64,000 bases of DNA from Sutcliffiella horikoshii. Its GTDB lineage: Bacteria > Bacillota > Bacilli > Bacillales > Bacillaceae_I. The stretch lies in NCBI GenBank assembly GCA_001636495.1, contig KV440964.1, positions 1,008,666 through 1,072,665 of the forward strand. Reading direction: 5' to 3'. The position numbers and the translations under genes were made by a program. Shown here piece after piece: positions 19,245-56,694 of the stretch. Within the stretch, counting starts at the first letter, position 1. Each line of letters starts with the position of its first letter. Under the pieces are notes generated by a model. That model was given only the letters and a program-made list of their open reading frames with translations. It ran no database searches and was not told the DNA's origin.

Positions 19245-21428
19245 TTGAGGAAAATCAAATTTTTTATATTACTTTCAACACTTACCTTAATTTTACCGCA
19301 TTCCATAAAAGCGCAAGAGACCATTCTCTGTGTACAACCTTCATTCCAAGAGATTGATAGATTGCTAACAACAGAAGCCTTAGCACAGGACATCCCACCC
19401 GAGATTGTAAAAGCGATTGCTTTTGTAGAATCGGACGGTTGGTTACAGTGTAAGGATGGAGAACCGAATGTATCGCCTGATAATGGTATAGGAATCATGC
19501 AGGTGACAGATCAAAGATATGATGAAGAAAGATTGAAGTATGACCTAGAGTATAACATCGAAGTCGGAGTCAGTATTCTTAACGAGAAATATGGTTACAG
19601 CGGGATAGATATCCCACTTCTAAATAATGGTGACCGTGATGTAATGGAAAACTGGTATTTTGCCATAATGGCCTATAATGGAATTAAGCAAGTGAATAGT
19701 CCTCTTTATAGAGCTAATGGGGAAAGGAACTATAATTCCTATCAAGACCGTGTTTTCAAACGTATCAAAGAAAGTTCCGATTTGAACTTGAATCTAGCGT
19801 TAGAAGAAATAGAACTATCTCATTTGAACTATGGGGACAATGGGTCATTATCTTTTGATAAGCTGAACTATTCACAAGAGGGAGTATTACATAAAACCAA
19901 GCATAAGTTTGAGCCTAAGGAACTGGTTGTTGCGACAGAGGAAGTCAATCTTAGAAATGTTCCGGGAAGGAATGGATCGAGTCTCGGGAAGCTTAATCAA
20001 GAGATAGTCATGATTGAAGATACTTTTGTCTATGACACTTCTACGAGCAACAGGAATTTTAATCATTTTGTCTGGTATCCAGTTTCGAGTGAATTGGTTG
20101 GCGCAAAGAAAAATGGATTTGTAGCTTCTTCCTATTTAACTTCTTTCGGCAAAAGGATTTCAGGGGCAGATAGATTTTCTACAGCAAACGAGATTGCTCT
20201 TGAAGGCTGGGATAAGGCGGATACAGTGATTATTGCAAGTGGCCAGAACTTCCCGGATGCGTTGGCTGGTGCACCACTGGCTTATAAACTTGATGCTCCC
20301 ATACTTTTAACCAAAAAGGATAGCCTACCAGATCAGACAAAACAAATGATTCAGCAGCTTGGTGCAAAGAGAGTTATCATGTTAGGCGGGACGGGTGCTG
20401 TCAGTGATAATGTTAGAAAGAGCATTGAGAATATTAAAGGTGTGGAAGTAGAACGTATTAACGGGGCAACGCGTTATGAAACGGCTGCTAGAATTGCGGA
20501 ACGATTGGGTGGTTCACCGGAAAAAGCAGTCATTGCCAATGGTTCTAATTTCCCGGATGCCCTTGCCATTGCTCCTTATGCTGCCAAGAATGGCTATCCG
20601 ATACTATTAATCAAGGAAAAAACGGATACTATTAATGAGCCGACAGCTAAACTATTAAGAGATAAAAAGATCAAGAGTACAATCGTAGCCGGTGGGACTT
20701 CTGCTGTGACTGATGCAGTCTTGAAGGCATTGCCAGGGGCGAAGCGTATTTCAGGTAAAGACAGATATGCTACTTCTGTCGAAATCATCAAAAAGCTTAA
20801 CCTACCTACTGAAAATATCTATACAGCTACAGGCAAGTCCTTTGCTGATGCTTTAACAGGATCTGTACTAGCGGCCAAGAAGGGAACTTCGATTTTACTG
20901 GTAGACGATAAAGTAAGGCCTGTCGTATCTGAACTGGTAAGCGAAAAGAATCTTCATAATTTTCAGGTGTTAGGCGGAAGAAGTGCAGTCAATGACCAAG
21001 CTCTAAACCTACTTTTTAAAGCTAGTAAAGGTATTTTTAATACTGCTGATTTAAGTGAAGAAGAGAAAAAGGTAATCGAGTTGGTTAATGTTGAGCGCAA
21101 GAAACATGGTGTTACTCCACTTTCCACACATGTACAACTAAGCTTGGTGGCAAGGGAGAAATCACTAGATATGAAAGCTAATAGCTACTTCGACCATACA
21201 AGCCCTGTATATGGTACTCCATTTGAGATGATAGATCATATCAACATCAAGTACACCTCTGCTGCAGAGAATATTGCAAGAGGTCACTTGACTCCTGAAC
21301 AAGTAGTTAACGCTTGGATGAATTCAGCGGGGCACAGGGCCAATATTTTAAATCCTAATATGACGCATATTGGGGTAGGGTATGAAAAAGAATTAAAACA
21401 CTGGACCCAGATGTTTATAAGTAAATAA
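19245..21428 (+). CDS. Lytic transglycosylase-like / SH3 / CWB_2 / CAP wall protein
   Basis: A 727-residue secreted modular protein. Signal peptide 1-24 is followed by a lysozyme-fold domain (about 35-175) with the likely catalytic Glu62 in AFVESDGW, GIGIMQV and the closing WYFAIMAYNG. An SH3-like domain comes next (about 220-300, LVVATEEVNLRNVPG...). Three CWB_2 repeats start at about 303, 403 and 500, with RISGADRFSTA, RINGATRYETA and RISGKDRYATS. A C-terminal CAP domain (from about 605) has HTSPVYGTP and GHRANILNPNM. CWB_2 triads hold proteins to anionic wall polymers. The start is TTG, 8 bases after AGGGGGA. The N-terminal modules match those of the gene starting at 22176, so the two arose by duplication with gain or loss of CAP. 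Confidence 0.88.
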   Translation: MRKIKFFILLSTLTLILPHSIKAQETILCVQPSFQEIDRLLTTEALAQDIPPEIVKAIAFVESDGWLQCKDGEPNVSPDNGIGIMQVTDQRYDEERLKYDLEYNIEVGVSILNEKYGYSGIDIPLLNNGDRDVMENWYFAIMAYNGIKQVNSPLYRANGERNYNSYQDRVFKRIKESSDLNLNLALEEIELSHLNYGDNGSLSFDKLNYSQEGVLHKTKHKFEPKELVVATEEVNLRNVPGRNGSSLGKLNQEIVMIEDTFVYDTSTSNRNFNHFVWYPVSSELVGAKKNGFVASSYLTSFGKRISGADRFSTANEIALEGWDKADTVIIASGQNFPDALAGAPLAYKLDAPILLTKKDSLPDQTKQMIQQLGAKRVIMLGGTGAVSDNVRKSIENIKGVEVERINGATRYETAARIAERLGGSPEKAVIANGSNFPDALAIAPYAAKNGYPILLIKEKTDTINEPTAKLLRDKKIKSTIVAGGTSAVTDAVLKALPGAKRISGKDRYATSVEIIKKLNLPTENIYTATGKSFADALTGSVLAAKKGTSILLVDDKVRPVVSELVSEKNLHNFQVLGGRSAVNDQALNLLFKASKGIFNTADLSEEEKKVIELVNVERKKHGVTPLSTHVQLSLVAREKSLDMKANSYFDHTSPVYGTPFEMIDHINIKYTSAAENIARGHLTPEQVVNAWMNSAGHRANILNPNMTHIGVGYEKELKHWTQMFISK

Positions 21429-21460
21429 TGCTGTATTAAATAGACTAATCTTAAATAAGT

Positions 21461-21495
21461 AAAATCCCCACATCCTCTGAGGAGTGGGGATTTTA
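21461..21495. terminator. Bidirectional terminator between convergent genes
   Basis: AAAATCCCCAC pairs with GTGGGGATTTT around CCTCTGAGGA-type bases. It serves the CAP-domain gene and the minus-strand membrane-protein gene. Confidence 0.8.
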
Positions 21496-21510
21496 TTATT
21501 GATAAAGCTT

Positions 21511-21978: not shown

Positions 21979-22132
21979 AACTACATATTAGGAATTATTT
22001 TCTATTTGTCTGATTTACACACAGATAAAAGAACCATTTTTTACAATTTGTATAAAAATACGACAATATCGCCAAATAATAGACAAATTACCTATTCATC
22101 CTCATGTAATCTATTTGTTAAAATTAATATTG

Positions 22133-22139
22133 TGTCGAA
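22133..22139 (+). promoter_or_regulatory. Possible Spo0A box before the second transglycosylase gene
   Basis: TGTCGAA inside TTGTGTCGAAATA, 37 bases before the GTG start. The position close to the ribosome site argues for repression or chance. Confidence 0.25.
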
Positions 22140-22175: not shown

Positions 22176-24452
22176 GTGCAAAAATGTATTATTGCTGTAA
22201 AGTTGTGTTTGGTATTAATGCTGATACTGGTTGTGGACAAGGGGTACGCAGAATGGACGGTTGAGGAACATTCCGTTCATGAAAAGAAACATACTACCGT
22301 GACTTTTGGTGAGTATGAGGTATCGGTTTCTAATGGAGAGACTTCTACTGCAGGTGTTTATTACAATGGGAATTTAAAAGAAGAACTAGTGGTGGATCAT
22401 GCTGGTTTTTCGACAATATTCACCTGGCAAGTTGATAATAAAGGGTATGTGTTATTGGAAAACAAAAAACAAGGTACAGGCGGCTATATGCAATTCTCTG
22501 TGGTCGAATTGGAGAATGGTACTGCAGAGCAAGTATTTTTATCAGACGAATACCTAATGGGATCGGTAAAGATTGATGCGGATAAGTTACAAGTAATCTA
22601 TGTAGATGGAAATGCTAGTCTGGTAGATAGTGTTACTCTACTAAAAGATACATACACGCAATCTGATAAAGGTTCTCTGGCTTTAACAGAAAAAGCAGTT
22701 AAGCAGTCTTTAACAGCAGAAATAGCGGAGGAAGGCTTCTCTTTCCAATCGTCTGGAAATCGAATTGTTGGGGAAAATCCGACGACTGCCCAACTGAATA
22801 TTATGTTGACGCAGGAAGCAATTCTTGCTGGAGTTCCTCCGGAGCTTGTCAAAGCCATTGCTTGGCAGGAAAGTTCATGGAGACAATTCCGAACTAACGA
22901 TGAACCGAGCGGCCTATGGAAAAAGGGCGACCCGGTGGTTTCTTTCGATGGCGGAATTGGAATCATGCAAATCACAGAGCCTAATATGACGGCTGAACGT
23001 GAAATTAGGCTAAAAGAAGATATTCGTTACAATATTCAAGAAGGCTTAAGAATTTTAAAAGATAAATGGAGTTACAGCAATTGGGGCCGTATCCCTAAGA
23101 TAAATGGAAATGACATGAATGTGATGGAAGACTGGTATTTTGCTATCATGGCTTATAACGGCATTTCCCGCAGAAATGATCCACAGTATTATCCGAACAA
23201 TACGTATCAAGATGTCATTTACCGTCATATCGAGCGATATACACAAATGTCGGTTACGAAGTTCCCAGAATCGCAGTTAAGAAGCGACATCTATTATAAT
23301 AATGCCGGTTCCCTGCATTTCAGAAAAAATCACTACTATGTAAATGGACCATTTGCAACGTCCAAGCACTTTTTCAAATCCAATGATTTAGTGAAAGCGA
23401 CAGAGAGTGGCGTAAGGCTAAGAAGATCTCCGGAAGGTGCGGAGGTAAGAATGACAACTGCAGGGGAGACGTTGCAGATAGTTGGGAATTACCAAGCGGG
23501 TAACAACAGTAATAATCACTTTGTCTGGTATCCAGTCAAAGATATGAAATCCAATGAAACGTATTTTATCGCGTCTAGCTATCTAGAAAACATTCGTATT
23601 TCAGGACCAAATCGTTATGCCACTGCTGTTAGCATTTCTCAAGCAGGCTGGGACAAATCAAATATAGTCGTTATTGCACGAGGAGATAATTTTCCTGATG
23701 CATTGGCAGGAACACCGTTAGCATACAAACTAAACGCGCCGATCCTTTTGTCGAGAAAATCCGATTTAACGGAAGAAACAAGAAATGAATTGGTTCGCTT
23801 AGGTGCCAAAAATGTGATTATCCTTGGCGGTACTGGTGCCATATCCAATACTGTTGCAAATAGCGTAAGGGATATGGGGATAGAAGTGAAGCGTATTGCA
23901 GGTTCTAACCGTTTTGAAACGGCGAAACTGATCGCTAATGAAATGGGAACAAACTTCTCCACTGTAGTTGTTGCTAATGGATACGGATTCCCTGATGCAC
24001 TTGCAATTGCTCCATATGCAGCAAGAAATGGAATTCCGATTCTTTTGACAGAAAAATCATATATTCCTGGTGCTACAAAAACCATTTTGAATTCAGCTAG
24101 TAACACCATCGTTGTAGGTGGAACAGCCGTTGTGAACCAGAGCCTATTGAAGAGCATGCCGAAAGCTAGCAGAGTTTCTGGTGCAACCAGATATGAGACA
24201 GCCTATAAAATAGGCACACAGTTCAACTTCTCTTCAACTGATGGATTAGCTGTGAGTGGGACAGACTTCCCAGATGCATTGACTGGATCTGTTCTGGCTG
24301 CAAAACGCAATGCACCGTTATTGCTGATGAATCCGACTTACTTACCAACCGAAACGTTGCAACTGGCACGTGCCAAAGAGTTTGCGCGTATATCTGTATT
24401 GGGTGGGACATCTGCTGTTCGTACGGAGAGCATTATTAATCTAGTTAAATAG
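22176..24452 (+). CDS. Lytic transglycosylase-like / SH3 / CWB_2 wall protein
   Basis: A 758-residue secreted protein. Signal peptide 1-25; a unique beta-rich region at about 26-190 of unknown function; a lysozyme-fold domain at about 205-350 with likely catalytic Glu232 in AWQESSW, GIGIMQIT and WYFAIMAYNG; an SH3-like domain at about 395-470; and three CWB_2 repeats from about 473 (RISGPNRYATA, RIAGSNRFETA, RVSGATRYETA) to the end. It probably cuts peptidoglycan glycan strands while held on a wall polymer. It is the close paralogue of the upstream gene but lacks CAP. The start is GTG with GGAGGAAGG upstream. Its own terminator follows. Confidence 0.88.
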   Translation: MQKCIIAVKLCLVLMLILVVDKGYAEWTVEEHSVHEKKHTTVTFGEYEVSVSNGETSTAGVYYNGNLKEELVVDHAGFSTIFTWQVDNKGYVLLENKKQGTGGYMQFSVVELENGTAEQVFLSDEYLMGSVKIDADKLQVIYVDGNASLVDSVTLLKDTYTQSDKGSLALTEKAVKQSLTAEIAEEGFSFQSSGNRIVGENPTTAQLNIMLTQEAILAGVPPELVKAIAWQESSWRQFRTNDEPSGLWKKGDPVVSFDGGIGIMQITEPNMTAEREIRLKEDIRYNIQEGLRILKDKWSYSNWGRIPKINGNDMNVMEDWYFAIMAYNGISRRNDPQYYPNNTYQDVIYRHIERYTQMSVTKFPESQLRSDIYYNNAGSLHFRKNHYYVNGPFATSKHFFKSNDLVKATESGVRLRRSPEGAEVRMTTAGETLQIVGNYQAGNNSNNHFVWYPVKDMKSNETYFIASSYLENIRISGPNRYATAVSISQAGWDKSNIVVIARGDNFPDALAGTPLAYKLNAPILLSRKSDLTEETRNELVRLGAKNVIILGGTGAISNTVANSVRDMGIEVKRIAGSNRFETAKLIANEMGTNFSTVVVANGYGFPDALAIAPYAARNGIPILLTEKSYIPGATKTILNSASNTIVVGGTAVVNQSLLKSMPKASRVSGATRYETAYKIGTQFNFSSTDGLAVSGTDFPDALTGSVLAAKRNAPLLLMNPTYLPTETLQLARAKEFARISVLGGTSAVRTESIINLVK

Positions 24453-24587: not shown

Positions 24588-25922
24588 ATGAAGATTTTAG
24601 CTTTCAAACGATACATAGTTGCTCTTGTTCTTGGTATGGTCGTTCTTGTCTCTTTGCCTTCCGTCAATCATGCAAATAGTTTTAATGTCGATAGAATCAG
24701 TGGTGAGAATAGGTATAAAACTGCAGTAGAAGTGTCAAAAAAGGGGTGGACAAGCTCCAATACCGTTATTATCGCAGCAGGCAACCAATTTCCCGATGCC
24801 CTGACAGGCACACCGCTTGCCTACTCACTAAATGCACCTATCCTTTTAACGCAAAACAGTTCACTTCCAAGTGAAACAAAAAGTGAAATTAATCGCCTAA
24901 AAGCAAAACATGCTATTATTCTGGGTGGCACAGGTGTTGTCACTTCCAATGTGGAAACTCAATTGAAAAATATGGGGTTAACAATCGAAAGAATAAGTGG
25001 ATCTGACAGATATTCAACTTCTGTGAAAATTGCCGAAAAACTGGCTGGTCAAAAAGATACAGCGGTACTTGTATATGGGAAGAATTTCCCTGATAGCTTG
25101 GCGATAGCGGCTCATGCAGCACGTAATGGCTATCCGATTCTTTTAACGAAAACAGACTCTCTTCCTTCAGCAACCAAAAAAGTCCTATCCAAATATAAGA
25201 ATACAATCGTCGTTGGTGGAACAGGCGTAATCTCTGAAAAGATTATGAATGATGTACCAAATGGGAAAAGGTATTCCGGGGAAAATCGTTATGATACTGT
25301 ATCGGAAGTGGTAAATGGCCTCAATGTTAAATTTGGGGAAAATGTATATGTGGCAACAGGTCAAAGTTATGCAGATGCATTGACAGGATCTGTATTGGCT
25401 GCGAAGAAAAACTCTTCTCTAGTATTAGTACAAAAAGATAAGGTTCCAACTCCTGTGCAAAATGTCCTGAATTCAGTGAACTCTTCAAACGCTTCCATTA
25501 TTGGAGGGACAGGTGCAATATCTTCCAATGTACAAAGTAAACTTGGCTTTAATACGGATGCGCTTGTTAAAACAGCCAAGCAATATATTGGAACACCGTA
25601 TCAGTATGGCGGGACTACTCCATCAGGTTTCGACTGCAGTGGATTTATCAAGTTTGTATTTGAGAAACATGGCATAAATACACCAAGAACTACTTCAGAT
25701 TTGTATGCGGGTGGGAAATCCGTTTCTAAGCTTGAGGTTGGGGACATTGTCTTCTTCAAAACAGACCCAAGCCATAATCGTGCTTCCCATGCAGGTATCT
25801 ATATTGGGGACAATAAATTTATCCATGCAAAATCTGCTGGATCTAATATTGGAGTAACAATAGATGAAATGTCTAATAGTTACTTTTACCCGCTATACCT
25901 TGGAGCTAAACGTTATCATTAA
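24588..25922 (+). CDS. CWB_2 / NlpC-P60 endopeptidase
   Basis: A 444-residue secreted wall enzyme. Signal peptide 1-30. Three CWB_2 repeats start almost at once: RISGENRYKTA near 36, RISGSDRYSTS near 133 and YSGENRYDTV near 226. An NlpC/P60 cysteine peptidase domain runs from about 323 to the end. Catalytic residues visible are Cys350 in FDCSGF, His401 in SHAGIYIG and the third polar residue in FIHAKS. Such domains cut the D-Glu-DAP bond in stem peptides. The wall-binding part is N-terminal here, whereas most neighbours have it at the C-terminus. GGGGGA precedes the ATG. Confidence 0.9.
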   Translation: MKILAFKRYIVALVLGMVVLVSLPSVNHANSFNVDRISGENRYKTAVEVSKKGWTSSNTVIIAAGNQFPDALTGTPLAYSLNAPILLTQNSSLPSETKSEINRLKAKHAIILGGTGVVTSNVETQLKNMGLTIERISGSDRYSTSVKIAEKLAGQKDTAVLVYGKNFPDSLAIAAHAARNGYPILLTKTDSLPSATKKVLSKYKNTIVVGGTGVISEKIMNDVPNGKRYSGENRYDTVSEVVNGLNVKFGENVYVATGQSYADALTGSVLAAKKNSSLVLVQKDKVPTPVQNVLNSVNSSNASIIGGTGAISSNVQSKLGFNTDALVKTAKQYIGTPYQYGGTTPSGFDCSGFIKFVFEKHGINTPRTTSDLYAGGKSVSKLEVGDIVFFKTDPSHNRASHAGIYIGDNKFIHAKSAGSNIGVTIDEMSNSYFYPLYLGAKRYH

Positions 25923-26360: not shown

Positions 26361-27089
26361 TTATTGTTTGTAACGGTATCGGCTTTCCATGTTTTGTCGG
26401 GCTGTATGGAAGTAATCTGGGACGGAGATTTTTCCTATAGAATAACTGCCAGCAGCGGGGTCCCACTTTTCATAGGCACCTAATCCTACTGCCATGCGTG
26501 CTTTCTGATTTTTGTTCAGTAGTTTTACTTTATTGTCAAAGGAGAAGTTTTTGTGTTCCTGTACTGGAAAGTAAAATTTTCCGTAGTGTACATTTGCTTC
26601 GTCTATCAAACCTTGAAGTGCTTGGCCTGTTACGGCATGGTCTGAATGGGGATCCTGTTCGCTCATAACGTGATGGATGACTGTATCATGTAGGGTGTTT
26701 TTTTGAAGGATGATTTCTGTTACTGCATCCTTACTTATTTCCCCGTCTGGTAGGTCCAATATTGTCACATTTGAAGCAGAAACCCCTAGCGCATCAACCG
26801 CTGCTTTGAACTCATCCACTCTTGCCTCTCCAAATTCTTCAACTGATATGGTGGGATGGCCTTCTGCTTCCAGTCTTTCATTCACAGTATGGATGGCTTT
26901 GCTTGCTTTTCCTTTTGATAACAATACAACATGAACTTCTTTGCTTGAAGAAAGTGCATGAATGATGGCTGGGCCTAAGCTAAGTACCTCATCATCAGGG
27001 TGTGGGGAATAGAATACTTCCAGCTGATCTGTTTTTGTTGCGGAACAGCCTGCTAGAATAATAGTAAGTAGGAGTATCAAATTTCTCAT
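26361..27089 (-). CDS. PIG-L family deacetylase, predicted lipoprotein
   Basis: A 242-residue protein with a lipoprotein signal (MRNLILLLTIILAGC, acylated Cys near residue 15) and a PIG-L/LmbE deacetylase domain. The zinc-binding motifs PHPDDE (near 31-36) and HSDH (near 146-149) are present. The family removes N-acetyl groups from GlcNAc-type sugars, for example in bacillithiol or glycolipid synthesis; those enzymes are cytosolic, so an exported lipoprotein points to a wall or surface glycan. An upstream frame extension to 27221 is unlikely: AAAGGAAAACAG precedes the chosen ATG. It is divergent from the acyltransferase gene. Confidence 0.8.
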   Translation of the reverse strand: MRNLILLLTIILAGCSATKTDQLEVFYSPHPDDEVLSLGPAIIHALSSSKEVHVVLLSKGKASKAIHTVNERLEAEGHPTISVEEFGEARVDEFKAAVDALGVSASNVTILDLPDGEISKDAVTEIILQKNTLHDTVIHHVMSEQDPHSDHAVTGQALQGLIDEANVHYGKFYFPVQEHKNFSFDNKVKLLNKNQKARMAVGLGAYEKWDPAAGSYSIGKISVPDYFHTARQNMESRYRYKQ

Positions 27090-27168
27090 CTGTTTTCCTT
27101 TCCTGTTCGACAAATATGCTACAATCATTCTATCAAACTTTTTACAGGAAAGTGTAGGCAAAATTGGT

Positions 27169-28281
27169 ATGGAAAAGAATGTAATGGAAACAAAAAGAAG
27201 ATTCAGGTCCATTGATGTCACAAGAGGGATAGTTGTCCTGGTGGCAGTCTTTGTCAGTGCTTTACCTGGGGGAGGGGGATACGACTATCTCCGCCATGCG
27301 TATTGGTATGGGGTGACAATTACAGACCTTGTCTTTCCCGCTTTTTTGACGGTGTATGGAATAGGGCTGGCTATTGTTTATCGAAAAGGGGTAAAGTGGA
27401 AGGATCTGTTAAGAAGAACCTTTTTACTTATTCTATATGGACTTCTGTTTAACATGATTTCCAGTTGGAAGCTGGATTTCGAGAATTTAAGATTTACAGG
27501 TGTGTTGCAACTCTTTGCCTTAACGGGAATAGGGGTAGTCCTGCTATCTCGCCTTGCTAGAAGCTGGAAGTGGATGCTTGCAGCTGGCCTTCTTATAGCA
27601 ACCACTTATATGTCCATTCTGATGATAACAGGGAGTGGGTGTGAAGGGGGAGTTCCGCAGCGGGATTGTAATCCTTCCGGTACTTTAGATGCGATGGTTT
27701 TTGGTGAGAATCATATGTACGCCAAAGGGGAGAGAGGTTTTGACCCAGAAGGTATTTTTGCTGTATTCAGTGCACTATCCAATGTAGCATTTGGATATGC
27801 CGTGGGGATGGTCCTGAATAGCCGTAAGCAGATTGCGGGCAGAATAGCCGCTATTGGTGTTGGACTAGTAATCCTGGGTTTTGTTTTTAATATATTTATA
27901 GAATTCAATAAACGCCTTTGGAGTCCTTCTTTTGCCTTGTTAGCAAGCGGTTTGACTTTATTACTATTGGCACTGCTCTTCTATTTAATAGATGGTAGGG
28001 AAAGGACGAATCGGAACTTTTCAAACTATCCGATCTGGTTTTTTGAAGCATTCGGAAGAAATAGCTTTTTGATTTATTTTGGTAAGATGCTGGTGTTCAT
28101 TTTGGTTAGTAAGATAGTAATCAATGTATTTGGAAGAGAAGGCTCCCTGGCCTCCTTGCTGTTTCAATTCTTGGAAAAGACGGTTCCATATCCGCATTTC
28201 TTTTATAGTGGAGTATTTGTGTTGTTCTGGTCCATCATTGCGGTGACCATGCACGCAAATAAGAAATATGTAAGGGTATAG
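27169..28281 (+). CDS. HGSNAT/DUF5009-type membrane acyltransferase
   Basis: A 370-residue integral membrane protein with about ten hydrophobic segments. The N-terminal motif RSIDVTRGIVVLVAVFVSAL, then LRHAYWYGVTITDLVFPAFL, fits the heparan-alpha-glucosaminide N-acetyltransferase-like family (DUF5009/DUF1624), which moves acetyl groups across membranes onto amino sugars. The conserved His in RHAYW is present. It is divergent from the PIG-L deacetylase, with 79 bases between start codons, suggesting shared control of sugar N-acetylation; that link is inference. ATG at 27169 is used; ATG at 27184 is an alternative. The ribosome site is weak. Confidence 0.75.
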   Translation: MEKNVMETKRRFRSIDVTRGIVVLVAVFVSALPGGGGYDYLRHAYWYGVTITDLVFPAFLTVYGIGLAIVYRKGVKWKDLLRRTFLLILYGLLFNMISSWKLDFENLRFTGVLQLFALTGIGVVLLSRLARSWKWMLAAGLLIATTYMSILMITGSGCEGGVPQRDCNPSGTLDAMVFGENHMYAKGERGFDPEGIFAVFSALSNVAFGYAVGMVLNSRKQIAGRIAAIGVGLVILGFVFNIFIEFNKRLWSPSFALLASGLTLLLLALLFYLIDGRERTNRNFSNYPIWFFEAFGRNSFLIYFGKMLVFILVSKIVINVFGREGSLASLLFQFLEKTVPYPHFFYSGVFVLFWSIIAVTMHANKKYVRV

Positions 28282-40774: not shown

Positions 40775-40786
40775 AAGGTGATTGTT

Positions 40787-44064: not shown

Positions 44065-44156
44065 TAAATATGACTCAAAGTTTTAGTTATCCCGACTTTT
44101 ATGTATAATAAATGAGGTATGAATTGAATCGTTTTAGATGTGGAGGAACCATTTTT

Positions 44157-47856: not shown

Positions 47857-48783
47857 ATGAATAATGTATCTGTCATCATCCCTACACATAATAGACCGCA
47901 TCTGTTGCTCCTGGCCTTGCAAAGTATTGAGGAGCAAAAAGAAAAGCCGGATGAAGTTATTGTGGTCATGGATGGTGAAGACGAAGAGACAGAACGGTTC
48001 TTGAACAGTTATACTAGTTATACTAGCGAAAACTTTGCGTTCCGACATATCAAAATCCCCGAAAGTCAAGGTGCTTGTTATGCCAGGAACCTTGGAGCAA
48101 GTAAAGCTGAAGGGGATATATTGATGTTTTTGGACGATGATGATACATGGGAGCCTGAAAAAATCCAAGAGCAACTTAAGCAATTTGAATTAAATAATGA
48201 TGTCGGGTTGGTGTATTCCGGCAAACTTGTCGTATATAATACAAACCGAAAAAAGGTTATTCGAAAAATACCTGCAAAAGTAAAAGGGAACTTATATCCG
48301 AAAATATTCGAAGATAATTATATCGGCACCACTTCTTCCGTTGCCATAAAAAAAGATGTCTTTAATAAGGCTGGCGGCTTTGATGAAAATCTACCTGCTA
48401 TGCAAGACTATGACTTATGGATAAGATGTTGTGAATGGACGAAGGTAGCGCATGATAATCAGTATAATGTCAGATATACGATTGCAAAGAATGCAAGCAA
48501 TCAGATCAGCGGGAAAAGTGAAAATCACCACCGCGCATTAACATATTTATTCGAAAAATATCGTGAAGTGCTTGAAAGTAAATCTTCCACCTTACAGAGA
48601 AGGTTCAGGTCATCGAGATTCTTGCATCTATCTAAAGCAGTTCACCGGAACAACTATTTATATTCATTAAAGTACTCTTTGAAAAGTATTTATTATTATC
48701 CCAATATAAAAGCGGTAGCCTTATTTTTACCGCCATTCTTACTGGCATTCATTTCATTATTTCAACCAGGAAGAGGGAAATAA
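47857..48783 (+). CDS. GT2-family glycosyltransferase (first)
   Basis: A 308-residue GT-A glycosyltransferase. VSVIIPTHNRPHLLLLAL opens the nucleotide-binding half. The metal-binding DxD-type motif is FLDDDDTWEPEK near 90, and MQDYDLWIRC near 185 fits the catalytic region. The C-terminal 80 residues are basic and amphipathic, suggesting membrane association. The GAGAGCATAA before the ATG is a modest ribosome site. It belongs to the flippase operon. Confidence 0.85.
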   Translation: MNNVSVIIPTHNRPHLLLLALQSIEEQKEKPDEVIVVMDGEDEETERFLNSYTSYTSENFAFRHIKIPESQGACYARNLGASKAEGDILMFLDDDDTWEPEKIQEQLKQFELNNDVGLVYSGKLVVYNTNRKKVIRKIPAKVKGNLYPKIFEDNYIGTTSSVAIKKDVFNKAGGFDENLPAMQDYDLWIRCCEWTKVAHDNQYNVRYTIAKNASNQISGKSENHHRALTYLFEKYREVLESKSSTLQRRFRSSRFLHLSKAVHRNNYLYSLKYSLKSIYYYPNIKAVALFLPPFLLAFISLFQPGRGK

Positions 48784-48826
48784 CTTGCACGAGGATTTAA
48801 AACAGAAGATGGTGAGGGCGATAGAA

Positions 48827-49624
48827 ATGATTAGTGTTGTCATACCTACACTAGGAACGAGAGAAATGGAATTAGAACGTTTATTCCAGAGTCTTAGTGA
48901 TCAAACGTATCAAAATTTTGAAGTCATCGTGGTTTCTCAAGATAATCATGAAAAAGTGGGCACCCTTCTTGCTAATTACTCATTTCCATATGAGCATGTC
49001 TCTTTAGATAGAAAAGGGCTATCCTACTCAAGGAATGTAGGAATCAACTATACAAAAGGCAAGGTCGTCACATTTTCTGATGATGATTGCTGGTACGAAC
49101 CAAATGCATTCTTGGAGGTCCATAATTTTTTTCAGGAGAATTCTGCTGGCATCGTGTGTTACCAGATCTATGATCCGGAGAAGAAAGAATACTATAAGGA
49201 TTATCCTAAAAATGCGCAAGAAAAGTTGAAGTTTCAGGATCTCTTTAGAAAGTCTTCCATTGAAATATTTTTAAATCTTGATGTTGTCGACAAGCAAAAG
49301 GTTATTTTTGATGAGGACTTTGGCGTAGGGGCAAAATATCCGAACGGTGAGGAAAACATCTTCCTGCACATGATGTATAAAGAGGGGTATCAGATTAGTT
49401 ATGTGCCAAAAGTGGTCGTGTACCATGGTAAGCCGAGCATGGACACAAGGTTGAATTTTAAAGCCTTTTCCAGTAAAGGGCCATTGTTCAAACGAATCTT
49501 CAACACACCTGTCGGGTTTGCGATGCTGACCTTTTTGTTCATTAAGAAGTTCAATCATCTGGAAAGGCCGTTTCCTTTTTATATTTCGTCTATTAAAGAG
49601 ATGCTTCAATACAAAAAAAAGTAG
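48827..49624 (+). CDS. GT2-family glycosyltransferase (second)
   Basis: A 265-residue GT-A enzyme: ISVVIPTLGTREMELERL at the start and TFSDDDCWYEPNA near 77-89 as metal-binding motif. NGEENIFLHMMYKEGY near 185 fits the acceptor/catalytic loop. Longer in-frame starts exist (TTG at 48785, ATG at 48809), but the family fold begins exactly at the ATG used, which GAGGGCG precedes. It is the last gene of the flippase operon; a shared hairpin follows. Confidence 0.82.
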   Translation: MISVVIPTLGTREMELERLFQSLSDQTYQNFEVIVVSQDNHEKVGTLLANYSFPYEHVSLDRKGLSYSRNVGINYTKGKVVTFSDDDCWYEPNAFLEVHNFFQENSAGIVCYQIYDPEKKEYYKDYPKNAQEKLKFQDLFRKSSIEIFLNLDVVDKQKVIFDEDFGVGAKYPNGEENIFLHMMYKEGYQISYVPKVVVYHGKPSMDTRLNFKAFSSKGPLFKRIFNTPVGFAMLTFLFIKKFNHLERPFPFYISSIKEMLQYKKK

Positions 49625-50230: not shown

Positions 50231-51616
50231 ATGGGTTATCTTTTAACAGCAGCGAAACAGCATAAGGAAAAAATAATTCTTGTGATTATGGGATTATTCA
50301 TGTTCTTGGCCCCTTATTCGGTTTCAGGCATCTATCAAAAATTAACACCAGTTCCATCATCCGTCTTAGTGACTTTTTTAACAACAGGTGTATTGTTTCT
50401 TTTGCTTCTGGTTCATTTTAAAGAGAGAAAACAGTTTAATCCCTTAAGCCTTGAACACAAGGCCTTTTTAGGCTCCATCTACATACCTGGTATCTTGGCT
50501 ATACTAGCAGCTTTCTTTAATTTGACTGTGATGTTATCGGTTCATTATGTGAACTACATAACACAAGCTTTACCAAACCGGATTATCAATTTAACTTTAT
50601 TTTTAATGCTGTTCTACACCTTCTTCAAGCTAATATCCTTTTTAAATGATAAAGTGCTTCTATCCATCACCAGATGGTATCTGTTCGGAGTATTGGTTGT
50701 AACGGCAATCGGCATATGGCAATTCCTTCATTTTATGTTTGGTTATCCTATGATTGATTTGAACACCAGATCATTTGTACATAGTGTCGAATCGAATGTG
50801 CTGTTCAATTTCCGGCTGACCTCCATAACCGATGAGCCAAGCTACCTTGTGCCCTTTTTAATTGATGCTCTCATCATCGGTCTGGTAATATATAGCAGTA
50901 AGAAAAAATATTTTCTTCAAGTTTTGATTCCGTGTATGTTTGTTCTTATCTTTTCATTTTCCGTCAGCGGTTACGCGAATATGGCTCTTTTATTAGGCTT
51001 TGTTGTTGTAGTCTTCTTTACAACAAAACTGGAAAATAAACGAAAGATACTGAAGTATACGTTGTACGGTCTGATACCAGTAGCTATCCTGATGATTGTT
51101 CAATGGGACTTTGTCTTACAACTATTGCAGCCCATTACAGGCAGATTTGATACCTTGTTTGATATCCACCGACATAGCAGATTGTACATGCTTGTCATGC
51201 CGATTGCCTGGCTCTTTGACTACTCAATGGTAAATAGTATCTTCGGTTTTGGACCGGGAAGCTATTGGTTCCTGGCACAAACGAAATTCCTATACCATCA
51301 AGGTCCGCTCAGTGTGACATCAAACAATATTTTTATTGATTTATTATTTGAGCACGGAATCTTCGGTTTCCTACTGATTACTTCTATGTTCGTTTATGTA
51401 TTTTATCGTTTATTTAAGGTTCGAAACGAACATAAATACTTTTTATATTCGCTCATACTTTGGGTTCATTTGGCGATAACGTCCATGTACCGTTCCGACT
51501 TTGTATCCCCAAGATTTTGGGCAATCGTAATTATTATCTTTATTTTTGTGGAATTAGGGAAAAGAGATAGAGGAATGTCTTCACTATCTAAAAGTACTAG
51601 CAGCAGATTAACCTAG
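50231..51616 (+). CDS. O-antigen polymerase/ligase-type membrane protein
   Basis: A 461-residue polytopic protein with about 11-12 hydrophobic segments. It is of the Wzy/WaaL/TuaE type that joins lipid-linked repeats outside the membrane. The large extracytoplasmic loop (about 320-375) holds the conserved RLYMLVMPIAWLF...FGFGPGSYWF...TSNNIFIDLLFEHGIFG, typical of the family. It complements the upstream flippase and corresponds in role to TuaE. Length is close to TuaE, but I cannot assign the polymer. The start ATG has a modest upstream GGATTGG. It is separated from gtaB by element copy H. Confidence 0.8.
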   Translation: MGYLLTAAKQHKEKIILVIMGLFMFLAPYSVSGIYQKLTPVPSSVLVTFLTTGVLFLLLLVHFKERKQFNPLSLEHKAFLGSIYIPGILAILAAFFNLTVMLSVHYVNYITQALPNRIINLTLFLMLFYTFFKLISFLNDKVLLSITRWYLFGVLVVTAIGIWQFLHFMFGYPMIDLNTRSFVHSVESNVLFNFRLTSITDEPSYLVPFLIDALIIGLVIYSSKKKYFLQVLIPCMFVLIFSFSVSGYANMALLLGFVVVVFFTTKLENKRKILKYTLYGLIPVAILMIVQWDFVLQLLQPITGRFDTLFDIHRHSRLYMLVMPIAWLFDYSMVNSIFGFGPGSYWFLAQTKFLYHQGPLSVTSNNIFIDLLFEHGIFGFLLITSMFVYVFYRLFKVRNEHKYFLYSLILWVHLAITSMYRSDFVSPRFWAIVIIIFIFVELGKRDRGMSSLSKSTSSRLT

Positions 51617-51783: not shown

Positions 51784-52662
51784 ATGAAAGTGAAAAAAGC
51801 GATAATACCTGCAGCAGGATTAGGGACAAGATTCCTGCCAGCAACGAAAGCACAACCAAAAGAAATGCTACCAATCGTGGACAGACCTACGATTCAATAT
51901 ATTATCGAAGAAGCGATTCAATCTGGAATCGAAGAAATCCTTATCGTAACAGGCAGGGGAAAACGTGCAATTGAAGACCACTTCGACCGCTCATTGGAAC
52001 TTGAAGAAACATTGATGGCAAAGGAAAAATTCGAACAGTTGGATGAAATTAAAAAGATATCCGAAATGGCTGATATCCATTATATCCGTCAAAAAGAACC
52101 AAAGGGCTTAGGACATGCCATCTGGTGCGCGCGTAAATTTATCGGTAACGAACCGTTTGCAGTGATGCTTGGCGACGACATCGTCGTTTCTGAAGATCAG
52201 CCATGTTTGAAGCAATTGATTGATGAATTTGAATCAAGAAATTCATCCGTAATTGGTGTGCAGGAGGTTCCAAGCAACGATTTATCAAATTACGGAGTCA
52301 TTGATTATGACAAGGGCGAAAGCGGAAAAGATTCCTTTAAAGTTACATCACTAGTGGAAAAGCCTTCTGTGGAAGAGGCACCTTCCAACTTGGCCATCAT
52401 GGGTAGATACGTTTTGACCCCTGAGATCATCGATATTCTTGAAACAATTGAACCAGGAAGAGGAAACGAGATTCAATTAACAGACGCTCTTCAGGAATTG
52501 ACAAAGTTCCAAGATGTCTATGGTTACCATTTCAAAGGGAAAAGATATGATATTGGAAATAAATTCGGCTTTATTCAAGCACAGATTGAATTTGCACTTA
52601 TGAGAGATGATTTAAAAGAACCGGTTGAAAAGTTCTTAAAAGATTTAGTCCGCAACTTATAG
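51784..52662 (+). CDS. gtaB: UTP-glucose-1-phosphate uridylyltransferase
   Basis: A 292-residue nucleotidyltransferase making UDP-glucose from UTP and glucose-1-phosphate. The signature [20 protein letters not shown] is at residues 12-31. [14 protein letters not shown]-like and LGDDIV (near 131) motifs, VEKP near 197 and GRYVLTPEI near 210 complete the active site. Length and motifs match GtaB/GalU. UDP-glucose feeds the UDP-glucose dehydrogenase encoded 21 bases downstream, as well as glucosylated teichoic acid and glycolipids. GAGGTGTCGGG precedes the ATG. Confidence 0.95.
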
Positions 52663-52683: not shown

Positions 52684-53997
52684 ATGAATATTTGTGTTAT
52701 TGGAACAGGATATGTGGGACTTGTTTCCGGTGTCTGTTTTAGTGATATCGGAAATAAAGTGACATGTGTGGATATTGATGAAAACAAAATCAATAATCTA
52801 AAAAAAGGAATCATTCCTATCTATGAGCCAGGTTTAGAGGAATTGGTACTTAAAAATATCGAAGAAAATCGTCTTCATTTTACGACGGAATTGGAGCAGG
52901 CAATGCATGATGCTGATGTGGTTATCATCGCAGTCGGCACCCCTCCGAAAGAAAATGGTGAAGCTGACCTGAGGTTTGTTGAGGCGGTTGCCACTTCTAT
53001 CGGAAAAAACCTTAACGACTACAAAGTAATCGTTACGAAGAGTACGGTTCCTGTTGGAACTGGGAAGTGGATTAAAGGCATCATTGAAAAAGAAGCCGGT
53101 CACTCCAACTTTGATGTAGCATCCAACCCTGAATTCCTTCGTGAAGGTTCTGCCATATACGATACAATGAATATGGAAAGAGCAGTTATCGGGGTGGAAA
53201 GCGACAAAGCAAGAGACGTATTAACACAGCTTCATGAGCCTTTTAAAACGAATATGGTTGTTGCTGACATAGAAACAGCTGAAATGATCAAGTACGCAGC
53301 CAATGCTTTCCTTGCGACGAAGATCAGCTTTATTAACGAGATTGCGAACATCTGTGAGCTTGTTGGGGCAGATGTGACGAAAGTGGCAGAGGGAATGGGT
53401 TACGATAATCGGATTGGTAAAGCCTTCCTTGCAGCCGGAATTGGTTACGGGGGATCTTGCTTCCCTAAAGATACGAATGCTTTAATAAACATTGCCGAAA
53501 ACGCCGGCTATAACTTAAGAATTGTAAAAGACGTGGAAAATGTAAATGCAATGCAACGATTCCGTGTTTACGATAAAGTGAAAGAAGCATTCCAGGGTGA
53601 TCTTCAAGGTAAGAAACTTGCGATACTTGGGTTGGCTTTTAAACCGAACACAGATGATATGCGTGCAGCGCCTTCCATAGATGTCATTCCTAAATTGCTA
53701 GAAGATGGGGCAGAGGTGCTTGCCTATGATCCCGTTGCAATGGCGAATGCGAAAAAGGAAATTGAAAACCTGACTACGGTGGAATCTTATGAACAGGCTG
53801 TTCAAGATGCGGATGCAGTAGTGGTGCTGACCGATTGGAAAGAATTTAAAGACCTTGATCTGGCTGATTTGAAAAAGAAGCTTAAACAACCAATCTTGAT
53901 TGATGGAAGAAACATGTTTGAACTCAATCAGATGGAGGATCTTGGCTATTATTATGCATCTATCGGCAGAAAGACGATCAACGGGCTTGAGAAATAA
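52684..53997 (+). CDS. tuaD: UDP-glucose 6-dehydrogenase
   Basis: A 437-residue enzyme oxidising UDP-glucose to UDP-glucuronate with two NAD. Seen are the Rossmann motif GTGYVGLVSG (7-16), VGTPP near 88, TVPVGT near 120, NPEFLREGSA near 145 and the catalytic Cys in GGSCFPKDT near 258-266. GLAFKPNTDDMRAAPS marks the C-terminal domain. It lies directly after gtaB. UDP-glucuronate is the acidic precursor of teichuronic acid, so it points to a uronic-acid polymer. The paralogous ugd (ywqF) of B. subtilis is activated by tyrosine phosphorylation, which the YwqE-like phosphatase of this window could reverse. Confidence 0.93.
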   Translation: MNICVIGTGYVGLVSGVCFSDIGNKVTCVDIDENKINNLKKGIIPIYEPGLEELVLKNIEENRLHFTTELEQAMHDADVVIIAVGTPPKENGEADLRFVEAVATSIGKNLNDYKVIVTKSTVPVGTGKWIKGIIEKEAGHSNFDVASNPEFLREGSAIYDTMNMERAVIGVESDKARDVLTQLHEPFKTNMVVADIETAEMIKYAANAFLATKISFINEIANICELVGADVTKVAEGMGYDNRIGKAFLAAGIGYGGSCFPKDTNALINIAENAGYNLRIVKDVENVNAMQRFRVYDKVKEAFQGDLQGKKLAILGLAFKPNTDDMRAAPSIDVIPKLLEDGAEVLAYDPVAMANAKKEIENLTTVESYEQAVQDADAVVVLTDWKEFKDLDLADLKKKLKQPILIDGRNMFELNQMEDLGYYYASIGRKTINGLEK

Positions 53998-53998
53998 T

Positions 53999-54055
53999 AA
54001 AGACCAACAAGGACAAAGGTGTGCAAAAAAACTGCACATCTTTTGGTCTTGTATA
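53999..54055 (+). terminator. Terminator after the UDP-glucose dehydrogenase gene
   Basis: An outer AAGACCAA / TTGGTCTT stem encloses AAAGGTGTGCA / TGCACATCTTT. The structure is strong, but the T-run is poor. Confidence 0.65.
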
Positions 54056-54084
54056 TAGAAAAACGTAATAATGAGGTGTGCTGG

Positions 54085-54585
54085 GTGAAAAAAAGATGGA
54101 GAAATATAGCACTTTTACTATTTGGTATTATTTTTGTGTCAGGCTTTTTCTTCTTGGATAGTGATGAGGTCCTCTACAATCAGGAACCGCAGGATGAAGA
54201 AGAAATTAGTCTTGGACAGCAACGTAACATCATGTCCTATATAGAAATTGCAAAATTCAAGTTCCACAACTTAACAGTTGAAGAGCATTATCCAAACCCG
54301 GAGAACTTGACCCAAGAAGAATTAGAAGGGTATCTGTCGAATTATTTCGCTGATCCTATGTTAAGTGACCTGGTAGCATTTTGGTCGGGGGGAAATCCGG
54401 AAATGGGTGCCTTTGTGGAACAATTCCTTTCCCTAAGCTCTGAAATAGAGGAAGCGGAATACATTCACTTAGAAGATAAGCAAGTGCTTGTTCGTTGGGT
54501 GGACCGCAACTTTGCAGTAGAGGTTAATCTTACGGTAGAACGGTATGGAAACGGCTGGATCATTAAGGATATTATGTTCGTGTAA
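54085..54585 (+). CDS. Membrane-anchored hypothetical protein
   Basis: A 166-residue protein with one N-terminal hydrophobic segment (residues 7-23) after a KKRWR start, then an acidic exported domain. I do not recognise it. The region SYIEIAKFKFHNLTVEEHYPNPENLTQEEL is followed by a beta-rich end, QVLVRWVDRNFAVEVNLTVERYGNGWIIKDIMFV, which resembles small lumazine/NTF2-like solute folds only loosely. The GTG start follows GAGGTG; a longer frame from 54019 overlaps the preceding terminator and is not used. It lies 48 bases before the third subtilase gene and may be its partner or inhibitor; that is a guess from position. Confidence 0.65.
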   Translation: MKKRWRNIALLLFGIIFVSGFFFLDSDEVLYNQEPQDEEEISLGQQRNIMSYIEIAKFKFHNLTVEEHYPNPENLTQEELEGYLSNYFADPMLSDLVAFWSGGNPEMGAFVEQFLSLSSEIEEAEYIHLEDKQVLVRWVDRNFAVEVNLTVERYGNGWIIKDIMFV

Positions 54586-54633
54586 AGAAAACAGGGGAAT
54601 CAAAAAAATATGGGGTACTAGGGAGAAAATAGA

Positions 54634-56694
54634 ATGAAAAAAAGCTTAGGTTTTATTCTGGGAGTCCTGTTATGCTTCACTCCTCTTTTCCATAATGGGG
54701 TTGCACAAGCTTCGCAAGAAGAGAGCATGAGAATTATTGTCAAATATAAAGAGAAGGACAACTATTCTTTCAGCAAAACTAAACAAAAGAATAAAGAATC
54801 AGTAGAAGTAAAAAGCATAAAAAAGAACGACTTCAGCAAAATTAAAAAAGAGTTGGAAAGCCATGATGATGTGGAATATGTGGAAGAGGACAGTTTTTTC
54901 TATTATACAAGCACCAATGACCCCCATTATTCCTTTCAAAAAGACTACTTCCAACTCATGAATGTACAGGCAGCATGGGCAGAATATGAACAGACCCATA
55001 AGCCGACTGTTGCTGTACTCGATTCCGGCATAGACCATCAACACCCAGACCTTAAAGATAACATTGTAAAACCATATAATATTCTGTCACCAAGTAGCAT
55101 GCCGGTGGATGAAATAGGCCATGGTACACATGTGGCAGGGATTATAGGTGCCAAAACCAACAATGGAACAGGAATCGCATCTATTGTAAAAGACACATAC
55201 CTCATGCCGGTAAAAGTGGGAGATCGTCAGGGCGCTTTTGCCTCTGATATTGCTTTAGGCGTTGATTATGCTGTGAAAAATGGCGCTGATATTATCAATA
55301 TCAGTATTGCTGGACCTAATAAAAACAATACTTTAAAAGAAGCCATTGATAAAGCGTTAAAGAATAACGTCCTGGTAATAGCTGCAGCTGGTAATAATTC
55401 TTCTTATACGGTTGAATATCCGGCGGGATATCCTGGTGTATTATCTGTAGGAGCTTCCGGACCAACAGGCGGGATGGCGGATTTCTCCAATTACGGAGAC
55501 TCGGTGTCCGTTGTCGCACCCGGCGTTCAAATTTTCAGTACTTTGCCAACCTCCCTGTCAAACAGTATCAAAGGGTATGGGGAAATGAGCGGTACCAGTA
55601 TGGCAGCACCACTAGTCGCATCCCAAGCAGCCATGCTGAAAAGTGCCAATCGGGATTTAACGGTAGGCCAGCTACAGGAGATCATTGAGGTTTCCAGTAT
55701 TGATGCATCAGCCTTTCCTGTTCGCCTTGGACAAGTGAATGCCGCTGATTCTCTGCAGTATTATCATAATAAAAATAGAATAGCGGGCAAGAACTCCCTG
55801 GAAACGTCTGTGGAAGTTGCGAAAAAAGGCTGGAAAACCGTTTCCCATTCCACGATTTCCAACGGCAGTCGTGAGCTGAAGGGGAAATTCGCTGTTCTGG
55901 CAAGTAACCAGAACTTTGCTGACAGCCTTTCTGTCATTCCTTTGGCTTATAAGATAAATAGTCCGATTTTCCTTGCGGAGAGAAGCTTTTTACCACAAGG
56001 ATCCATATCTTCCATGAAGGAAATGGGCGTAGATCATGTTATTGTAGTCGGTGGGGAACAGGCGATAAGTAAAAGCGTCGAGAAAAAACTGAACGACAAT
56101 GGAATGAAATCAACAAGGATATCAGGTAAGACAAGGTATGAGACGGCAGTTGAAATAAGTAAGTTTGTGGTCGGAAATAATGGGGAAGTAATGATAGTGA
56201 ATGGCAAAAGCTATCCTGATGCATTATCAGCCTCAGTGGAAGCTGCTAGAAAGAATATGCCGATTGTTTTTGTTGAGAGTACTTGGGTGCCAAGTGTTAC
56301 GAAAGATTTCCTCGATAAACAACGTTTTTCGCGCAAATATATTATTGGTGGAACAAAGCCAATCAGTGATTCCGTCCAAAAAAGCTTAGGAGCAACTCGA
56401 ATCTCAGGAGCGGATCGATATAAAACCAATATAGCGGTTGCGGAGTATTTTAACACAACTTATAATGGCTATTATTTTGCCACAGGAGCAGATTTTAAGG
56501 ACGCGCTGACAGGTGGATTGCTTGCTGCAAAACAATATAGAGGGCTTATGCTCGTCCGCCCAAGCGATATGGATTCTTCCACAAAGAAATATCTTGAACA
56601 GCGTACACAGGCAGAATACGGCGTACTTGGTGGACGACAAGCGGTTCATTCTAGCGTGTTATGGAAAATTGACAAAATACTTTCTGGCAATTAA
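54634..56694 (+). CDS. Subtilisin-like protease with CWB_2 repeats (compact)
   Basis: A 686-residue secreted S8 protease. Signal peptide 1-27; short propeptide 32-90 (MRIIVKYKEKDN...VEYVEED); catalytic domain about 105-375 with Asp130 (VLDSGID), His163 (GHGTHVAG), the oxyanion Asn of AAAGNNSS near 254 and Ser322 (SGTSMAAP). Three CWB_2 repeats follow directly from about 382. The first is unusual: RIAGKNSLETS with an extra insert SHSTISNGSRELKG. The others, RISGKTRYETA and RISGADRYKTN, are normal. It lacks the PA and PPC modules of the other two subtilases and resembles a minimal wall-held subtilisin. It lies apart from the main CWB_2 block, downstream of the sugar-nucleotide genes. Confidence 0.9.
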   Translation: MKKSLGFILGVLLCFTPLFHNGVAQASQEESMRIIVKYKEKDNYSFSKTKQKNKESVEVKSIKKNDFSKIKKELESHDDVEYVEEDSFFYYTSTNDPHYSFQKDYFQLMNVQAAWAEYEQTHKPTVAVLDSGIDHQHPDLKDNIVKPYNILSPSSMPVDEIGHGTHVAGIIGAKTNNGTGIASIVKDTYLMPVKVGDRQGAFASDIALGVDYAVKNGADIINISIAGPNKNNTLKEAIDKALKNNVLVIAAAGNNSSYTVEYPAGYPGVLSVGASGPTGGMADFSNYGDSVSVVAPGVQIFSTLPTSLSNSIKGYGEMSGTSMAAPLVASQAAMLKSANRDLTVGQLQEIIEVSSIDASAFPVRLGQVNAADSLQYYHNKNRIAGKNSLETSVEVAKKGWKTVSHSTISNGSRELKGKFAVLASNQNFADSLSVIPLAYKINSPIFLAERSFLPQGSISSMKEMGVDHVIVVGGEQAISKSVEKKLNDNGMKSTRISGKTRYETAVEISKFVVGNNGEVMIVNGKSYPDALSASVEAARKNMPIVFVESTWVPSVTKDFLDKQRFSRKYIIGGTKPISDSVQKSLGATRISGADRYKTNIAVAEYFNTTYNGYYFATGADFKDALTGGLLAAKQYRGLMLVRPSDMDSSTKKYLEQRTQAEYGVLGGRQAVHSSVLWKIDKILSGN

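Follow-up and report, generated by a model that had tools for sequence, protein, structure and literature searches.

Our subject is a dense group of wall proteins that carry CWB_2 repeats, together with the polysaccharide genes around them, in Sutcliffiella horikoshii (genome G000). The window, meaning the whole stretch of 64,000 nucleotides that was analysed (G000:C1:1008666-1072665), had been predicted to encode eight such proteins with exactly three repeats each, and a PF04122 profile count confirms this for all eight. The 4.26-Mb genome as a whole holds 27 PF04122 repeats, all of which pass the curated cut-off. They belong to 9 proteins of 3 repeats each; 8 of these are in the window and 1 is outside, and all nine fall within 62 kb. 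The list of enzymes joined to the repeats was also right, except that Pfam places SLT and CAP together in the 19245 protein and SLT only in the 22176 protein. The N-termini of all eight window proteins look signal-like when judged by eye. The CWB_2 proteins of the genome are listed here, with the domains of the eight window proteins assigned by Pfam.

cwA, 19245..21428, plus strand: SLT (1.6e-07), three CWB_2 repeats and CAP (8.6e-19)
cwB, 22176..24452, plus strand: SLT and three CWB_2 repeats
cwC, 24588..25922, plus strand: three CWB_2 repeats and NlpC/P60
cwD, 28863..33194, plus strand: subtilase and three CWB_2 repeats
cwE, 33402..37961, plus strand: subtilase (PA, fn3_5) and three CWB_2 repeats
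cwF, 38634..40727, plus strand: Amidase_3 and three CWB_2 repeats; predicted LytC-like function, with the domain order reversed
cwG, 41565..43865, plus strand: SpoIID/LytB and three CWB_2 repeats; TIGR02669 223 bits, over the cut-off
cwH, 54634..56694, plus strand: subtilase and three CWB_2 repeats
Ninth CWB_2 protein, C1:1087858-1089507 (L021:15259-16908), minus strand: leucine-rich repeats (LRR) and three CWB_2 repeats

Judged by their sequences, the three repeats of a triad are not equivalent, and the triads were duplicated as ordered units. Twenty-five of the 27 repeats match best a repeat with the same place in the triad of another protein, compared to a mean of 9.0 and a maximum of 22 in 5000 shuffles. 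Position-specific consensus motifs are also visible in 294 repeats from the fetched genomes, a set that excludes repeats of fewer than 75 residues and proteins without exactly three detected repeats. A relaxed PILL-type motif is present within a fixed slice of 25 of the 27 repeats, and in the remaining two the alignment has PIFL and GLML instead. An AlphaFold2 model was made of one of the nine proteins, that of 24588, from seven sequences (predicted local distance difference test score, pLDDT, 82.6), and in this model the protein has the pseudo-threefold CWB2 fold. Its best Foldseek matches are Cwp6, Cwp8 and SlpA of C. difficile (E-values of 2.0e-24 for 5j72, 8.3e-24 for 5j6q and 5.5e-23 for 7acy), which the sequence profile finds as well. 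Homogenisation of the triads by gene conversion was considered and was not seen; the triads group largely by enzyme, in a tree that was made quickly and in which G014 and G023 have long branches.

The anchor fold shared with SlpA and the Cwps, along with the three subtilases among the eight window proteins, would suit a set that, like the one of C. difficile, forms mainly a coat, whether S-layer-like or of proteases, and does not serve in peptidoglycan remodelling. We consider this highly improbable, however. Five of the eight have domains that cleave peptidoglycan or serve as activators (SLT twice, NlpC/P60, Amidase_3 and SpoIID), and among the nine the LRR protein alone is without a Pfam enzyme domain.

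Polymer genes do surround the array, as the original prediction had it, but the TagO gene, both LCP genes and one of the dehydrogenase genes lie outside the 19245-56694 interval in which they had been placed. The polymer genes and other genes of the island, with their basis in brackets, are given below.

LCP1, 10178..11104, minus strand: TagU-type LCP ligase, left island border (NF006897 455.2, cut-off 441)
11446..12759, plus strand: TviB-like UDP-GlcNAc 6-dehydrogenase (NF011729 518 bits, below the cut-off of 592)
26361..27221, minus strand: PIG-L type deacetylase (Pfam PF02585 1.5e-19)
27169..28281, plus strand: HGSNAT-type membrane acetyltransferase (Pfam PF07786 2.4e-09)
lipoA, 40778..41536, plus strand: small lipoprotein between the amidase and the SpoIID protein (LVFAGC lipobox-like stretch)
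44112..45584, plus strand: Wzx/MOP-type flippase (Pfam PF13440)
gt4a, 45603..46712, plus strand: GT4 glycosyltransferase (Pfam)
gt4b, 46716..47843, plus strand: GT4 glycosyltransferase of the array-tracking pair (Pfam; distribution)
gt2a, 47857..48783, plus strand: GT2 glycosyltransferase of the array-tracking pair (Pfam; distribution)
gt2b, 48785..49624, plus strand: GT2 glycosyltransferase (Pfam)
50231..51616, plus strand: putative Wzy-type polymerase (hydrophobic segments in a crude scan, and position)
51784..52662, plus strand: GalU, UDP-glucose pyrophosphorylase (TIGR01099 397.7 bits, over the cut-off)
52684..53997, plus strand: UDP-glucose 6-dehydrogenase, TuaD-like (NF047673 667 bits, below the cut-off of 700; Pfam UDPG_MGDP_dh)
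54019..54585, plus strand: small protein of the wzy-type island (no Pfam or NCBIfam family)
gt2c, 56842..57606, plus strand: TuaG-like GT2 glycosyltransferase (NF047683 375 bits, below the cut-off of 400)
57829..58899, plus strand: TagO/WecA-family initiating transferase (Pfam PF00953 3e-44)
LCP2, 59247..60230, minus strand: LCP ligase, right island border (Pfam PF03816 8e-53)
60249..63139: yvyE-like (minus strand), degS (plus strand) and degU (plus strand), conserved right flank (Pfam)

The putative polymerase at 50231 (wzy) has no Pfam or NCBIfam match, and lipoA has no Pfam family. The genes of the PIG-L deacetylase and the HGSNAT-type acetyltransferase are divergent and overlap inside the array (26361-28281), and their products may tailor the polymer, perhaps at amino sugars.

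The same stretch was compared in a family sample of 18 genomes (G000 included), 16 of them of Sutcliffiella, taking 65-123 kb around degS in each; from G023, a genome of another family, the 140 kb that precede degS were taken as well. The degS gene has a single match in each of 31 genomes. The right border of an LCP2-like gene, yvyE, degS and degU is present in 18/18 family genomes and the left border, LCP1, was found in 16/18. Gene content between the two varies among the 18, and the stretch from LCP1 to LCP2-yvyE-degSU is an exchangeable wall-polymer island. An array, by which we mean at least four CWB_2 proteins in the island, is present in 11 of the 18 genomes. The other seven are G002, G006, G008, G011, G012, G015 and G017, and for five of them (G002, G006, G011, G012 and G017) there are zero PF04122 matches genome-wide. 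Array-bearing and array-less genomes can be close relatives, as G003 and G008 show with 98.1% identity in the rpoB stretch. On an rpoB tree made from 5.1-kb loci the array label takes six changes, at least five of them forced by well-supported branches, and its clustering does not exceed that of shuffled labels. Since orthologous triads largely track species relationships, an old array has more likely been lost several times than gained several times. Decayed genes can also be seen within arrays that are otherwise intact. In G013 the place of cwD is taken by a remnant that contains a TAG (G013:C1:3791806-3792536), and in G001 that of cwB by a short piece (G001:C1:3835039-3835230), which suggests that single array members are dispensable. 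The LRR protein, which lies 15-17 kb past the window and beyond degSU, has the same position in six genomes of the genus (G000 included), all of them array-bearing.

In most of the genus the constant partner of the array is neither the polymerase nor a uronate gene but two adjacent glycosyltransferase genes, gt4b and gt2a (the GT pair). Both are in the fetched islands of 9/9 genomes that have orthologues of a core of cwC, cwE, cwF and lipoA and in 0/9 of the others (Fisher 4e-5; six independent contrasts, 6:0, p 0.031), and the pair was not found in the fetched islands of the 7 array-less genomes. A genome-wide search for gt2a (E<=1e-50) did not find it in G006, G008, G011, G012, G014 or G017, while its absence in G002, G015 and G016, and every absence of gt4b, is read from the fetched regions. 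The HGSNAT-type acetyltransferase is labelled in 8/9 islands with the pair and in no other fetched region. Compared to solved structures, the two enzymes have distant relatives only, namely WlaC and the TagF-like Cps3D for gt4b and chondroitin synthase first for gt2a. Two other candidates for the shared factor were dropped. The 50231 polymerase is present, together with the 54019 protein, in the same 6/16 genomes of the genus only, and arrays persist without it; a uronate dehydrogenase is not specific, as G006 (tua) has one without CWB_2. The association also reaches beyond the island itself, as CWB_2 proteins elsewhere in the genome are present in 11/11 array genomes vs 1/7 of the others (Fisher 3.8e-4).

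The array-less islands have hydrolases of their own. In G011 and G012 there is an Amidase_3 protein with six or seven copies of SH3_3, plus a SpoIID protein without CWB_2, and in G002, G006, G008 and G017 there is an SH3_3-Glucosaminidase protein, which an M14 peptidase accompanies in G002 and G008. SH3-type hydrolases are in the island in 6/7 array-less genomes, alongside other polymer genes, compared to 0/11 array islands by a strict count (Fisher 3.8e-4) and 2/11 by a loose one (Fisher 0.013), which adds a G013 gene at the far left, where the border was unreached, and G010 genes just past the LCP2-like gene. The exception among the array-less genomes is G015, which has tua-type genes with LytB-type and LytC-type proteins that bear CWB_2.

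These distributions bear on the simplest explanation of the locus, which is mere linkage. The island would then be a recombination hotspot, and its enzyme and polymer genes would travel together without any physical interaction of their products. A slot of fixed position, with conserved flanks and patchily distributed contents, is what one would expect in that case, and excerpts of PMC8753576 describe the wall teichoic acid cassette of B. subtilis, from yvyE to ribZB and including lytABC, as exchanged among strains. What linkage explains least is the joint absence of the CWB_2 genes outside the island, because those genes lie far from it and still co-vary with it. The binding modules also change with the type of polymer, and separate losses of polymer genes in G001 and G003, described below, spared the GT pair, whose ratios of nonsynonymous to synonymous substitution (dN/dS) are far under 1, at 0.13 and 0.22. 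We therefore regard linkage by itself as a poor explanation, with little chance of being the right one.

Similar arrangements can be found in other genera. A scan of named genomes by amidase alignment gave 11 loci, six of them from other genera, and a lipoA-type lipoprotein adjoins the amidase in 6/6 of these. A CWB_2 block of amidase, lipoprotein and SpoIID protein is directly followed by polymer genes in 4/6, namely Metabacillus indicus, M. idriensis, Peribacillus frigoritolerans and Robertmurraya kyonggiensis. Of the six, only the M. indicus locus combines the block with gt4b, gt2a and gt2b, which stand in the place and order seen here, before degSU; in the other three the block, or its amidase-lipoprotein-SpoIID part, stands with other polymer genes. 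The Bacillus suaedae locus has no polymer-type label within 10 kb, and in Litchfieldia salsa the amidase is without CWB_2. In the wider order, a CWB_2 match (E<=1e-10) is present in 62/249 sampled genomes and a gt2a relative (E<=1e-50) in 6/249, all 6 of which have at least 22 CWB_2 repeats. The distance from the gt2a relative to the CWB_2 repeats is about 1.3 kb in G177 and 5 kb in G041. We also surveyed ten other families at the best-scoring CWB_2 site of one genome per family, picked for long contigs. Polymer-type genes are near the site in 5/10 (6, 5, 5, 3 and 1 genes in the fetched 33-40 kb), counted by similarity to about 20 polymer proteins, so that unusual enzymes would be missed, and without matched control regions; two of the matches are weak, at 25-26 bits. 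Adjacency of CWB_2 and polymer genes is common, but it is not a rule of the CWB_2 family.

Taking this together, we lean with modest confidence towards the view that the island is a cassette of a polymer and its matching hydrolases, in which the wall enzymes would dock on the polymer made by the island through their CWB_2 triads. The idea of such a ligand gains support because array and pair are absent together, CWB_2 is then absent elsewhere in the same genomes and the anchor is replaced. In this mechanism the island would make a glucuronate-containing polymer that is initiated by TagO and probably assembled by Wzx and Wzy, and the LCP enzymes would attach it to peptidoglycan. The lytic transglycosylases, the amidase with its SpoIID activator, the NlpC/P60 endopeptidase and the three subtilases would then dock on it through the ordered triad. 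In relatives, polymer type and hydrolase binding module change together, CWB_2 going with one polymer class and SH3_3 with others. The element that is recognised would have its best candidate makers in the glycosyltransferases of 46716 and 47857, and on the gene distributions the CWB_2 ligand probably depends on this pair. A bolder version of the cassette works as a lock and key. Here a new polymer would force the whole hydrolase set to be swapped, CWB_2 proteins giving way to SH3_3 ones, and CWB_2 genes elsewhere to be lost, and the GT pair would write a CWB_2 mark that is independent of the backbone (compare G001, G003 and also G010, which retains the flippase, gt4b and gt2a amid otherwise different genes). 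We hold this version only tentatively and think it somewhat doubtful.

If the cassette view is true, the sets of wall hydrolases differ between close species because they must match the resident polymer. The at least five switches of array, polymer genes and anchor type among 18 genomes amount to a natural experiment, and they narrow the search for the CWB_2 ligand to two adjacent glycosyltransferases.

There are several points that weigh against the cassette. One concerns the way the comparison was constructed. The core of cwC, cwE, cwF and lipoA was defined after the maps were seen, and the 9:9 table for the GT pair hinges on this post hoc choice, because G016 has a CWB_2 array with orthologues of cwE, cwF and lipoA but without the pair; G014 has another CWB_2 array that also lacks it. 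Only 4-6 independent contrasts are available. For the CWB_2 proteins outside the island 4/5 of these agree with 1 tie (p 0.125), and for the SH3-type hydrolases p is 0.0625-0.125 by the strict count and 0.0625-0.25 by the loose one, using a profile seeded mostly from array-less genomes, plus one G010 protein; both sets of contrasts stay short of the 0.05 level. Additionally, the left border was unreached in G013 and in G002, whose contig reaches only 25 kb upstream of degS. The two kinds of gene also do not always go together. G006 has tua genes (TuaB 710 and TuaE 515 bits, over the cut-offs) and zero CWB_2, and the array-less G008 has one CWB_2 subtilase in the island plus a CWB_2 protein of 2933 amino acids elsewhere. 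Outside the family there is no recognisable polymer gene within the fetched 25-40 kb at the other 5/10 surveyed sites, so that relatives do carry the CWB_2 set far from such genes; these sites include G166 with 11 CWB_2 proteins and G049 with 9, and one of the five has an amidase-lipoprotein-subtilase block.

A further point comes from G001 and G003. At the island both have lost the flippase with gt4a, the run of gt2b, wzy, galU, dehydrogenase and 54019 genes, and gt2c, and there are zero matches to wzy (50231) anywhere in either genome. G003 nevertheless keeps the whole array and G001 most of it (cwB decayed, cwD truncated), and both retain gt4b, gt2a and the 54634 subtilase. Between the two genomes dN/dS is 0.13 for gt4b and 0.22 for gt2a, compared to 0.06-0.09 among the wzy-bearing genomes; the ratios are below 1 yet higher than in the latter, so that constraint on the pair may be relaxed. 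Either the CWB_2 proteins of G001 and G003 read a mark made by gt4b and gt2a on another polymer, or their ligand is not the wzy-type polymer. The original prediction that the neighbouring polymer is the ligand is plausible and partly supported. In its favour, array and adjacent polymer genes are gained or missing jointly in the genus, four of the six loci in other genera have the block next to such genes, and CWB_2 genes elsewhere tend to be missing along with the array. Against its strong form stand these two genomes and the sites in other families.

A different ligand could account for this. It might be a more constant wall polymer, such as a classical teichuronic or teichoic acid or a shared linkage unit, with the island polymer merely a neighbour at a tagO/degSU site that always holds wall polymers and autolysins. 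In G001 and G003 the array has outlasted wzy and the genes for uronate, and both genomes have a tua-type locus with its own CWB_2 pair of LytB and LytC type; the G166 and G049 arrays have no polymer-type genes within 40 kb. The locus lies left of the array in G001 (TuaE 558 bits, cut-off 400) and, by the gene map, in G003. In G001 it is at about 3845-3859 kb of C1, and by Pfam its CWB_2-SpoIID and CWB_2-amidase proteins have N-terminal CWB_2, which is the domain order of B. subtilis; relatives of these CWB_2 proteins are found in G003 and G015. However, G006 lacks CWB_2 genome-wide although it has tua genes, and G002, G011 and G012 are without CWB_2 although their fetched regions include LCP genes and genes of the tagO family. 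A constant polymer also does not predict the joint absence of CWB_2 genes outside the island. Overall we find this explanation unlikely, though still one to be reckoned with.

In principle it is no novelty that CWB_2 enzymes are encoded beside polymer genes, as C. difficile and the lytABC genes of B. subtilis show. A CWB_2 ligand has been established for C. difficile (PSII); for Bacillales such as B. subtilis, with its LytB and LytC, none is known to have been established. LytC of B. subtilis has N-terminal CWB_2 and its lytABC region lies near degSU. According to Willing et al. 2015 (PMC4973711), anchoring in C. difficile needs three ordered, non-interchangeable CWB2 repeats and an Ile-Leu-Leu motif, and PSII is a ligand of two CWB2 proteins. 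The slpA/Cwp region and our island are alike in the three position-specific repeats, the paralogues beside polymer genes, the PILL-type motif and the fold. Unlike that region, the island contains galU and uronate dehydrogenases, has enzymes in place of an S-layer protein and has a polymer that is a putative ligand. In C. difficile, genes for mannose activation in the neighbouring locus serve to make PSII; no mannose-1-phosphate guanylyltransferase was over the cut-off among the island genes scanned with Pfam and NCBIfam.

The closer likeness is to B. subtilis, where, in the excerpted parts of the sources, a lytB/lytC pair of CWB_2 genes belongs to a lytABC group inside a tua/tag region with tagO and yvyE (PMC8753576) and LytB has its CWB_2 at the N-terminus (PMC7176660). 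Our island likewise has a CWB_2 amidase, a CWB_2 activator of SpoIID type and a small lipoprotein, in the place of LytA, beside polymer genes, and it adjoins tagO, yvyE and degSU as the lytABC-tua locus does. It differs in that CWB_2 is C-terminal and the catalytic domain N-terminal in 38634 and 41565, and in that the window has six further CWB_2 proteins. The polymer genes are also not those of tua, as 44112 scores 33 bits for TuaB (cut-off 580) and 50231 has no NCBIfam match. Like the exchanged B. subtilis cassette, as far as excerpts describe it, the island is bounded by yvyE, includes its lytABC counterpart and is mixed among strains against genome-wide relatedness. The exchange in B. subtilis is between teichoic acid types, and a joint change of polymer and hydrolase binding module class is not mentioned in the part of PMC8753576 consulted. 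In the open-licence literature, subscription papers being outside our scope, we found no description of the Sutcliffiella locus or of a joint change of anchor and polymer. Two features seem to be new, namely an enzyme block of this size with its order conserved, and the fact that polymer and hydrolase anchor switch type jointly.

A few minor observations remain. A loose pattern for sigma-D sites has four matches in the window, none of them directly before the start of a CWB_2 gene and on that gene's strand. SLH domains (PF00395) were considered as a substitute anchor in the species without CWB_2 and were set aside, with 0-2 matches per genome of the genus and 1 in this genome. In 13 genomes of other families SLH and CWB_2 look nearly exclusive; the five with at least 33 SLH matches have 0-3 CWB_2 matches, and G023 has 26 CWB_2 matches and no SLH. 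Finally, at 13370-17242 on the plus strand the window has a row of genes for VTC-domain, CotH kinase-like, LRR and DUF4956 proteins, which is possibly a separate surface module, and the same row stands beside the island in G005 and G015.

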